From assembly GCF_039535115.1 (NCBI RefSeq), contig NZ_BAAAWO010000001.1:1736001-1800000 (forward strand): a stretch of 64,000 bases of DNA, written 5' to 3'. The position numbers and the translations under genes are program-made. This document shows, in pieces, positions 19,932-23,194 of the stretch; positions within the stretch are counted from its first letter, which is position 1, and each line of letters starts with the position of its first letter. The notes under the pieces were generated by a model. It was not told the DNA's origin and did not search any database. It worked only from the letters and a program-made list of their open reading frames with translations. The DNA is from Paeniglutamicibacter sulfureus (GTDB taxonomy: Bacteria > Actinomycetota > Actinomycetes > Actinomycetales > Micrococcaceae).

Positions 19932-20144
19932 TTAGCCGGTGTTGAAGTCGCGCCCGAACCCGGCAGCCCGCAAGTACTCCTGTACGGCGTTTTCGGGTAC
20001 ACGGTAGGAGCGGCCGAACCTCACGGCCGGCAATTCGCCGGAATGGACGAGTCGGTAAACCGTCATCTTTGACACACGCATCACATCGGCGACCTCGGCG
20101 ACCGTCATGAAACGCGCGCTGGCAAAGTTTTGCGATTCGACCAT
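19932..20144 (-). CDS. Excisionase-type HTH DNA-binding protein (Rv0500A-like)
   Basis: A 70-residue MerR/excisionase-fold protein: RFMTVAEVADVMRVSKMTVYRLVHSGELPAVRFGRSYRVPE is the classic winged HTH of this group. It lies 145 bases upstream of the bS22 gene on the same strand. Despite the excisionase name there is no integrase or phage gene here; in actinobacteria this is a chromosomal regulator of unknown targets. Confidence 0.85.
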   Translation of the reverse strand: MVESQNFASARFMTVAEVADVMRVSKMTVYRLVHSGELPAVRFGRSYRVPENAVQEYLRAAGFGRDFNTG

Positions 20145-20335: not shown

Positions 20336-21442
20336 TTAGCGCGCGGTCCGTACCGCTTCGGCCAGGGTCGCTAGCATTTCGGCACTCGTGTCCCAGTCCA
20401 TGCACGCGTCGGTGACGGACTGCCCGTAGGTCAACCCCGCCAGGACGTCGGATCCTTGCGCGACGGCATCAGGGTCATGTTTCTGCGCACCGGCCACCAA
20501 GAAACTTTCAGCCATGATTCCGGCAATCATTTGGTCCCCGTCCGCTATGCGGGCGGCCAGCTCGGCGATGACCTCCCGCTGGCGCACGTGGGACTTGCCC
20601 GAGTTCGCATGTGAGGCATCGACGATCACCCGCGGGTTCATGCCGGCGTTGCCCATGGCGGCCGATGCCGCGCCAACAGACTCGGCCGCGAAGTTCGGTC
20701 CGTCGGTGCCGCCACGCAGGATCAGGTGGGCGTCGTCGTTTCCTGCGGTCCTGACTACTGCCGTACGACCATCCTCGCTAATGCCCAGGAAGGACTGTGG
20801 TGCGGAAGCCGCTTGGCAGGCATCGATCGCCACCTGCACCGAGCCGTCGGTCCCGTTTTTGAATCCAACGGGCATGGATAGCCCGGATACCAGCTGCCGG
20901 TGCGTCTGGCTTTCGGTGGTGCGTGCCCCGATGGCGCCCCAGCTGACCAGGTCCGAGAGGTACTGGGCGCTGAGCGGCTCGAGGAATTCGGTGGCCAGTG
21001 GCAGGCCCAGGTTGCTGGCCGCCAACATGAATTCGCGTGCGGCTCGCAGCCCGGCGGACATGTCATGGCTGCCGTCCAGGTGCGGATCGTTGACCAGGCC
21101 CTTCCAGCCCACGGTGGTGCGTGGCTTCTCGAAGTAGCTGCGCATGACCACGAGCAGTTCACCCTCGTGCTGCTTCGCGGCCGCGGCGAGCCTGGTGGCG
21201 TATTCCAGCCCGGCTGCAGGGTCGTGGATAGAGCAAGGGCCCACGATGACCAGCAGACGCTCGTCAAGCCCGGAGAGCACGGCACGGACTTCCTGGCGGG
21301 CCCGCATGATCCGGTAGCCCTGGGCATCGCCCACTGGCAATTCGGCAGTCAGTTCCGCGGGGGTGGGCAGCTCGGTGATTGCCAGCACCCGTTCATTGGT
21401 GTTGACGCGGGCCTGTGTCTCGGCGGCGATGGCGGTGCTCAT
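20336..21442 (-). CDS. aroG: 3-deoxy-7-phosphoheptulonate (DAHP) synthase, class I
   Basis: Joins phosphoenolpyruvate and erythrose 4-phosphate, the first step of aromatic amino acid synthesis. The 368-residue protein has the class I motifs LLVIVGPCSIHDP (metal Cys), MRSYFEKPRTTVGWKGLVNDP, and the C-terminal VIVDASHANSGK and IAGIMAESFLVAG. ATG 21442 follows GAAAGG and gives the family-like start MSTAIAAETQ; an in-frame ATG at 21493 would add 17 Pro/Arg-rich residues. The upstream leader peptide and RNA structures (21616-21675 and 21535-21662) suggest control by the supply of Trp, Tyr and Phe. The gene symbol is by class; the exact feedback type is not visible. Confidence 0.9.
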   Translation of the reverse strand: MSTAIAAETQARVNTNERVLAITELPTPAELTAELPVGDAQGYRIMRARQEVRAVLSGLDERLLVIVGPCSIHDPAAGLEYATRLAAAAKQHEGELLVVMRSYFEKPRTTVGWKGLVNDPHLDGSHDMSAGLRAAREFMLAASNLGLPLATEFLEPLSAQYLSDLVSWGAIGARTTESQTHRQLVSGLSMPVGFKNGTDGSVQVAIDACQAASAPQSFLGISEDGRTAVVRTAGNDDAHLILRGGTDGPNFAAESVGAASAAMGNAGMNPRVIVDASHANSGKSHVRQREVIAELAARIADGDQMIAGIMAESFLVAGAQKHDPDAVAQGSDVLAGLTYGQSVTDACMDWDTSAEMLATLAEAVRTAR

Positions 21443-21534
21443 GGTTTGGGGCCTTTCGGTTTCGGCCCCGCGCCGTGCAGTGGGGGGCCTCATGGTTTCA
21501 ATGCGGCCCCGGCGATCACGCTGCGTATTCCTCC

Positions 21535-21662
21535 AGGGCCGCTATCTTGGAAATAGCGAAGGGCCGGCAAGCATAGCTTGCGGCCCTTGTCGGCTCTGAA
21601 GGTGGGTATGCGAAATTATCGCGTCTTAGGCCCCTCCAGAGCCGACACAAAATACGCATACC
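21535..21662 (-). promoter_or_regulatory. Candidate attenuator RNA ahead of the DAHP synthase gene
   Basis: On the minus strand the leader contains, in order: GGTATGCG (21662-21655, on the Trp-Tyr-Ala codons), TGTCGGCTCTG (21647-21637), then CGCATACC (21612-21605) and CAGAGCCGACA (21598-21588), which are perfect complements of the first two. Because the pairs are interleaved they form a pseudoknot or exclude each other. A GC hairpin follows (21588-21559). Its 5' arm can instead pair with GCGGCCCT at 21542-21535. No long U run follows, so termination or ribosome-site masking are both possible. Confidence 0.65.
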
Positions 21663-21675
21663 AACGATTAGTCAT
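21616..21675 (-). CDS. Aromatic leader peptide upstream of DAHP synthase
   Basis: A 19-codon frame reads MTNRWYAYFVSALEGPKTR and then TAA. Trp5, Tyr6, Tyr8 and Phe9 fall within five codons, which is far from chance and is the signature of a leader peptide that senses charged tRNA-Trp, -Tyr and -Phe. There is no ribosome site. The predicted -10 box ends seven bases before the ATG, so the message is probably leaderless, which is common in actinobacteria. The stop codon lies between the first and second halves of the paired RNA segments, as needed for ribosome-mediated attenuation. Confidence 0.8.
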   Translation of the reverse strand: MTNRWYAYFVSALEGPKTR

Positions 21676-21682
21676 GGATGAG

Positions 21683-21711
21683 AATCTACAGCCGCGCCAC
21701 GCGAATCACAA
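21683..21711 (-). promoter_or_regulatory. Promoter of the aromatic leader / DAHP synthase transcript
   Basis: On the minus strand TTGTGA (21711-21706) and TAGATT (21688-21683) are separated by exactly 17 bases. The ATG of the leader peptide begins eight bases after the -10 box, so transcription should start at or next to the start codon. Confidence 0.65.
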
Positions 21712-21759
21712 ATGGGTTTCCATTCCCGGGCGACACAGTACGTCATGAAGCACGGCAAA

Positions 21760-21813
21760 GGGCGGGCCGGGACAGGCGGGTCCATAATTGTTCCCGTCTG
21801 TCCCTGCCCGCCC
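21760..21813 (-). terminator. Terminator after gdhA
   Basis: Bases 21760-21780 and 21793-21813 form a 21-bp GC-rich stem with few mismatches around a 12-base loop. Read on the minus strand it lies about 35 bases beyond the gdhA stop. Confidence 0.75.
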
Positions 21814-21847
21814 TCTTGAGGCGTAATTCGGCTGGAGGCCTGTCTGC

Positions 21848-23194
<1,347 letters not shown>

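Follow-up and report, generated by a model that had tools for sequence, protein, structure and literature searches.

A candidate ribosome-operated RNA switch with an aromatic leader peptide ahead of a DAHP synthase gene in Paeniglutamicibacter

The aroG locus, its promoter and its leader peptide

The window, a stretch of 64,000 nucleotides, comes from a 4.57 Mb genome of Paeniglutamicibacter. Its minus strand carries a gene for an aroG-type (type I, aroFGH) DAHP synthase at 20336..21442, with its start ATG at 21442, whose product scores 462 bits against TIGR00034 (cut-off, 173.2) and 483.5 bits against NF009395 (cut-off, 343), both NCBIfam models. The leader unit that is the subject of this work lies ahead of this gene, at 21442-21711 of the minus strand, and P. 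sulfureus As4PL has the same leader together with a DAHP synthase that is 99.5% identical over 368 residues. The preceding gene (21848-23191) encodes glutamate dehydrogenase; 3′ of its end stands a long GC hairpin (approximately 21748-21815, minus strand; tail CTTTGCCGTGCTTC), which is probably its terminator. Downstream of aroG there is a 70-aa helix-turn-helix ORF (19932-20144, minus strand), presumably of the BldC/excisionase type, and a very similar stretch adjoins aroG in several relatives.

An Rfam scan of the whole window returned a single tRNA and nothing else, and over 21400-21760 it gave four matches far below their gathering scores (E, 0.22 to 6.3). On these scores, a riboswitch, a T-box, a Trp leader, or another known RNA family was ruled out.

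The original prediction placed a TTGTGA-17-TAGATT promoter and a leaderless 19-codon aromatic peptide ahead of the gene, and both can be read letter for letter. Specifically, the −35 hexamer TTGTGA lies at 21706..21711 and the −10 hexamer TAGATT at 21683..21688 (minus strand), 17 nt apart and with the first base of the latter 13 nt before the leader start codon; the leader ORF, MTNRWYAYFVSALEGPKTR (21616..21675, minus strand), comprises 19 codons with an RWYAYF core. The peptide is conserved in relatives, as is the position of the −10 hexamer, while at about −37 to −35 relatives have only a T-rich stretch. A generic consensus scan of the window did not flag this promoter. TANNNT precedes the leader start codon in 191 of 207 distinct upstream sequences, compared with approximately 17 for shuffled upstreams, and in 188 of the 207 it begins at −13, −12, or −14 (106 at −13 and 76 at −12). 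Since the −10 position is conserved in this way, transcription would start at the leader AUG, within a nucleotide or so.

The leaders favor the codons TAT and TTT, contrary to genome usage: in the first 16 codons of 132 distinct leader ORFs, we counted 189 TAT and 7 TAC, 123 TTT and 29 TTC, whereas 24 long ORFs of the window contain 30 TAT and 183 TAC, 63 TTT and 318 TTC. All of Trp, Tyr, and Phe occur in 175 of 181 distinct leaders, a count that is partly built in, because leaders were chosen for aromatic codons. The spacing to the GGCU motif that follows is not built in: exactly 5 nt separate the last aromatic codon from GGCU in 150 of the 181; in the window, this codon is a Phe codon and the motif reads GGCTC. 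At one locus of the same family that has the pattern (L189, genome G321), GGCTC comes one base sooner after the aromatic codons, and the leader search made no call; its leader frame may be shifted.

Relatives of the leader

DAHP synthase of this type is encoded in 36 of 99 sampled genomes, and an exact match to TGGTATGCGTATTTT..GGCTCTGGAGG upstream identified the leader in all 29 same-family genomes with the enzyme and in none of the rest of the 99. With a pattern free in third positions, 171 of 395 genomes of the family were matched, representing 14 of 32 genera, and TAT GCG TAT TTT was present in all among the matches listed. Outside the family, a leader was found at five of the nine loci fetched upstream of the gene, with the peptides RWYWRFTPAP (twice), RYWFSVSAP, RWYWFVSAP, and RWYAYFESAL; upstream of the gene at four loci of genus g51, none was seen by eye. 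Of 347 genomes of the order that were searched, 14 matched a looser pattern.

A scan of 84,980 species, one genome each, gave 67 stretches. In 55 of them an AroG match starts 155-366 nt downstream on the same strand, in five (L219, L229, L236, L249, and L262) the sequence ends within about 330 nt of the leader, and seven, from other phyla, appear to be chance matches. Named hosts of the leader include Isoptericola, Microbacterium, Luteimicrobium, Ruania, Zhihengliuella, and Kocuria (gene beyond the available sequence), and further Subtercola, Tessaracoccus, Couchioplanes, Winogradskya, and Streptomyces canus. A sample of the phylum had the synthase in 35 of 346 genomes, and its 27 new loci divide into 14 with a leader, 12 without one by the rule used, and one false call (L139); one locus that is leaderless by the main rule, L124, has a possible leader under a looser rule. 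The leaderless loci of this sample and of g51 weigh against the explanation given below. The synthase is present in 93 of 200 genomes of the order of G783 and in 126 of 151 genomes of its family, where leaders were called at 24 of 25 and 26 of 26 new loci, respectively, although six calls of the second set are wrong. Over the whole pool, which is biased in that it was partly drawn by leader patterns and includes some genomes more than once, a leader was called at 273 of the 288 loci where AroG matched, none was called at 14, and one was unscored. The false calls are L139, L303, L306, L307, L308, L310, and L311; L139 was inside the set of 182 distinct sequences used below and was dropped later (leaving 181), and the other six were outside it. 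A wrong-frame leader, L267, was retained.

Relatives of the leader are found in several other actinobacterial families. Conservation of the peptide and of the pairings described below, the absence of which the original prediction had named as counterevidence, is thus present across relatives. Two details of the collection are noted here. In a Nocardioides metagenome bin (L224), the RWYAYF leader is Micrococcaceae-like and the AroG shares 72% identity with that of the window over 190 residues; the contig is possibly mis-binned. In family f22, several AroG matches (L113, L270, L276, and L302) cross one TGA in the aligned frame, which perhaps lies upstream of the true start.

RNA pairings and the choice between them

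The folding energy of the 235-nt leader lies 5.9 standard deviations below that of dinucleotide shuffles (z = −5.9), and none of 200 shuffles was as good. Read along the minus strand, segment A (21655..21662) covers codons Trp5-Tyr6-Ala7, and its complement A′ (21605..21612) follows the stop codon. Segment B (21633..21647) spans codons 10-15, its GGCTC beginning 5 nt after the last Phe codon, and it pairs with the pivot strand B′ (21588..21602), which has B″ as its other partner. Beyond B′ come a terminator-like hairpin T (21559..21588), followed by CGCTATTTCC; hairpin H3 (21540..21558; CGCUAU...AUAGCG), which folds and whose stem is varied in relatives; and B″ (21530..21542), a near copy of B that pairs with B′ or with segment C (21503..21515). 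The pairing of B″ with C forms hairpin H4, with 12 of 13 positions paired. Segment B can also fold locally as GGCUC-UGGAG-GGGCC (21629..21643), with GGGGCC or GGAGCC in relatives; an apparent covariation between the T arm and the GGGGCC of B, seen by eye, was dropped in favor of this local hairpin, which explains it better. In the whole-leader fold, the Tyr-Ala-Tyr-Phe codons (21649-21658) pair with GGAAUACGCA at 21522-21531, beside GGAGG; similar letters recur in part of the genus, and the arrangement recalls the leuA LEU element.

The complementarity of A with A′ and of B with B′, on which the original prediction rested, is real, and B:B′ proved longer than described, with 15 pairs joining 21647-21633 to 21602-21588. 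The second partner it had proposed for the T arm, at 21535-21542, is complementary in the window; among 16 representatives, this pairing occurs in the window and L036 only. As a general pairing it was ruled out, and across lineages this segment (B″) pairs with B′ and C instead.

Among the stems of the 16 representatives, B:B′ ranks first in eight and within the top four in 12. In a set of 182 distinct sequences that includes the false leader L139, it came out ahead of all 60 shuffles in 101 and within the best three in 151. The corresponding figures for B′:B″ are 56 and 104 of 172, and B″:C, scored in 155 of these 172, reached the best 2 of 40 shuffles for 84 of them. Since B, B′, and B″ were picked by best fit and the sequences are related, these counts and the permutation figures below lean towards pairing and are not independent probabilities.

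Covariation was assessed on the 156 of 182 sequences with a GGCU anchor, taking one per leader class (47 classes). B:B′ covaries at five offsets from GGCU (−3, −1, +5, +8, and +9), each exceeding all 500 permutations, through exchanges of C-G with U-A and of G-C with A-U, while offsets −2 and +7 merely equal the best permutation. The same B′ base also covaries with B″, in 44 of 47 classes against a permutation maximum of 38; another B′:B″ base pair is standard in just 26 of 47 classes, which we count against our best explanation. The covariation that the original prediction had called for is therefore borne out for B:B′ at five positions.

Segment A is nucleotide-identical in 29 of 29 same-family loci. 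A:A′, sought solely between B and B′, ranks in the best 3 of 60 shuffles for 62 of 100 RWYAYF sequences and for 31 of 81 others. In 48 of the 100 and seven of the 81, A′ begins at the stop codon or immediately beyond it; otherwise it lies within the ORF. The interleaved order that had been thought to set this leader apart is thus not special to the group: A′ is often inside the ORF, and A, B, A′, B′ was the order looked for, with no alternative orders compared. A sequence of A that is invariant in the family while A′ drifts would also fit a peptide that itself arrests the ribosome, or an RNA that binds a protein, with the pairings secondary. We regard this as very unlikely, as the peptides differ widely between lineages while the aromatic codons and the pairings persist.

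To describe the choice between these pairings, we compared folds with B free and with B masked, the masked state representing a ribosome at the stop codon that covers the leader. The comparison used 135 of 172 sequences, kept because B″ was credible and the helix at least as stable as −8 kcal/mol, a selection that favors the switch. In transcripts ended just after C, masking of B lowers the mean probability of B″:C from 0.83 to 0.26 and raises that of B′:B″ from 0.02 to 0.65. A shift of more than 0.2 with the state of B is present in 95 of the 135 sequences and is reversed in none. When B′ was scrambled, B″:C in the masked state rose from 0.26 to 0.74. The leader class of the window itself has a smaller effect, with B″:C going from 0.87 to 0.68. 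Together, the dependence on B and the result of scrambling B′ indicate a two-state device that passes the state of B to C: B:B′ with B″:C on one side and B′:B″ on the other form an exclusive choice. B″ as a second partner of B′, and C as a further partner of B″, are newly recognized here. The locus thus has mutually exclusive, evolutionarily kept helices adjoining an ORF, and this ORF is short and clusters codons for the product amino acids before a biosynthetic gene, as in attenuators.

Output of the switch and comparison with known systems

A GC hairpin at 21559-21588 had been predicted and is present as T; a generic scan of the window did not flag it as a terminator. Each of the 181 distinct sequences has a called hairpin adjoining B′ (mean, −21 kcal/mol), although in L127, L133, L137, L279, L283, and L284 it is not of the T kind. 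The 12 nt that follow contain 3.8 U on average (range, 0-9, with some stems called too long), and hairpins at gene ends in the window have tails about as imperfect as that of T.

If T is an intrinsic terminator and B:B′ an antiterminator that blocks it when the ribosome stalls, the leader would be a classical attenuator, the mode reported for C. glutamicum aroF in a review (PMC11802643). In certain lineages the evidence points this way. A strong U tract follows T in L128, L129, and L276 (also in L303 and L307), B′ overlaps the lower T stem in L116 and L128, and in L127 a terminator-like hairpin uses B′ as its own 5′ arm. Basal T pairs are clearly lost with B free in 42 of 181 sequences, including nine of 10 distinct sequences from the genus of the window (in L001, 0.00 compared with 0.78 with B masked), and over all lineages the probability of T is 0.82 with B free and 0.89 with B masked. 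However, in the 106 distinct family sequences it is 0.92 in both states, falling by more than 0.2 in one of them; the tail of T is weak and poor in U, and B″ and C are left unaccounted for. Classical attenuation has, in our estimate, somewhat less than an even chance of being correct. B:B′ as a plain antiterminator for the whole family was rejected on the equal probabilities of T. Because an antiterminator that shares a strand with the terminator and prevents it does not emerge from the 106 family sequences, we do not file the leader as a classical attenuator. As such, of the ribosome-mediated attenuation put forward in the original prediction, the leaderless aromatic peptide and the conserved, covarying pairings stand, while its classical terminator/antiterminator pair is unsupported. 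The element would work like a ribosome-mediated attenuator, yet departs from the classical kind in that no such strand-sharing terminator emerged for the family.

The output could instead be the translation start of aroG, whose probable Shine-Dalgarno sequence, GAAAGG (21452..21457, minus strand), lies partly within a GGGGCC/GGCCCC hairpin. Masking of B would then lead to B′:B″, freeing C, which would close the Shine-Dalgarno sequence. Consistent with such a chain, the stretch of C that pairs with B″ overlaps the one that pairs with the Shine-Dalgarno sequence by at least 3 nt in 115 of 155 sequences, in line with the shuffle result for B″:C (84 of 155, within the best 2 of 40); a long helix of C with the Shine-Dalgarno sequence exists in L114, L264, L275, and L302; and minimum-energy folds with B masked give B′:B″ together with this helix in four of seven cases (L018, L203, L275, and L302). 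Enforcing H4 raises access to the Shine-Dalgarno sequence by more than 0.1 in 53 of 135 sequences and lowers it in 25 (some values being undefined), and access to the start codon of the window is 0.74 under B:B′ (0.51 when H4 is added), compared with 0.34 when B is masked. On the other hand, pairing of C with the Shine-Dalgarno sequence reaches the best 2 of 40 shuffles for just 27 of 155 sequences, and it remains closed under enforced B:B′ in L018, L275, and L302. At full length, mean access runs slightly in the wrong direction: for the Shine-Dalgarno sequence it is not raised in the supposed ON state, either in equilibrium folds (0.37 versus 0.40) or with enforced helices (0.37 versus 0.42; 39 of 172 sequences fall by more than 0.1 and 11 rise), and for the start codon over all sequences it is 0.53 versus 0.60 and 0.47 versus 0.56, respectively. 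In the window, Shine-Dalgarno access is flat, at 0.66-0.67 in every state. We therefore consider this translational chain rather unlikely. Between H4 and the aroG start, GGGGCC and GGCCCC blocks alternate (21442-21515, minus strand) and are kept with variation in the genus; these could be a further chain of exclusive hairpins.

That H4 formation depends on B would also suit Rho-dependent or decay control, in which the ribosome-free stretch from B″ to aroG is either exposed or folded into H4, and Rho has been proposed for actinobacterial cys leaders without terminators (PMC1262725). To this we assign a low probability.

These results probably describe a cis-acting RNA switch, operated by the ribosome, through which the supply of charged Trp, Tyr, and Phe tRNA controls the aroG-type DAHP synthase gene. 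The ribosome would load on the RNA 5′ end without a Shine-Dalgarno sequence. With aromatic tRNA short, it would stall at codons 5-9, leaving B wholly or partly open to pair with B′, so that B″ would be free to pair with C. With charged tRNAs, it would advance, cover B, and end nearby; A could then pair with A′, B′ would pair with B″, and C would be left free. A ribosome stalled on the last Phe codon would overlie the start of B, so that Phe starvation should open B only in part, a point against this reading. By analogy, B:B′ under starvation would be the ON state. We commit to ribosome-mediated control and grade its last step: premature end of transcription at or after T seems slightly favored overall, the translation start of aroG would be a distinctly weaker candidate, and action on both a minor one.

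Enteric attenuators of the trp/phe type combine a leader peptide bearing regulatory codons with mutually exclusive helices, and translational attenuators of the erm/cat type respond to drug-induced arrest. In the latter, the position of the ribosome likewise picks between alternating helices; they differ from the present leader in depending on drug arrest rather than amino acid supply. Regulatory codons and exclusive helices are shared with both the enteric trp/phe and the actinobacterial trp attenuators (PMC1262725), but in most relatives of our leader B′ adjoins T rather than lying inside it, and has a partner beyond T. The actinobacterial LEU element before leuA shares a leader peptide, pseudoknot-like pairings, and no need for a canonical terminator (PMC1262725). 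Its codon run pairs with the leuA Shine-Dalgarno sequence (PMC1262725), whereas the codons in the window pair with 21522-21531 and not with the aroG Shine-Dalgarno sequence.

The closest known case is the C. glutamicum aroR leader before aroF, a peptide with Phe-Tyr-Phe (Mentz 2013, PMC4046766), a likeness drawn from its published description rather than from its sequence. The precedent of an attenuator before a DAHP synthase gene in that species, which the original prediction mentioned, is borne out by the literature (PMC4046766, PMC11802643). Both systems have an aromatic leader peptide ahead of a DAHP synthase and ribosome stalling, the latter being our reading for the window. They differ in that control of aroF by stalling is described under Phe, not Tyr, limitation (review, PMC11802643, citing Neshat 2014), so that aroR is reported there without a Tyr response, unlike the response to all three aromatics proposed here. 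One relative, L300 (MRNWRFYFEWGSGR), has F-Y-F as in aroR together with B, B′, and T of the window type, making it a suggestive link to the aroR family. In a 2005 survey of Actinobacteria, no conserved RNA structures are given upstream of phenylalanine/tyrosine operons (PMC1262725), and a Streptomyces lividans table of eight leaders has none for a DAHP synthase gene (PMC8079986). Besides C. glutamicum, no aromatic DAHP synthase leader in actinobacteria was found in the sections retrieved from the open-licence PMC literature (including PMC4833913, PMC7356990, and PMC5784534).

Taken as a whole, the proposal of a widespread actinobacterial family of leaderless, all-aromatic leaders, with a relay chain through B, B′, B″, C, and in places the Shine-Dalgarno sequence, is put forward tentatively, as its chances fall well short of even. 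If it is true, the leader would be a relay attenuator, in which the first pairing depends on where the ribosome stands and its outcome is carried beyond an autonomous hairpin, reaching a site approximately 130 nt further on, and a single leader would gate both transcription and translation of DAHP synthase, unlike the four-segment kind. The aroF leader of C. glutamicum, an amino acid producer, may then belong to a large family, and the B′ switch would offer a defined handle for engineering aromatic production. The finding suggests an RNA answer to the question of how one gene at the entry to the shikimate pathway senses three end products.
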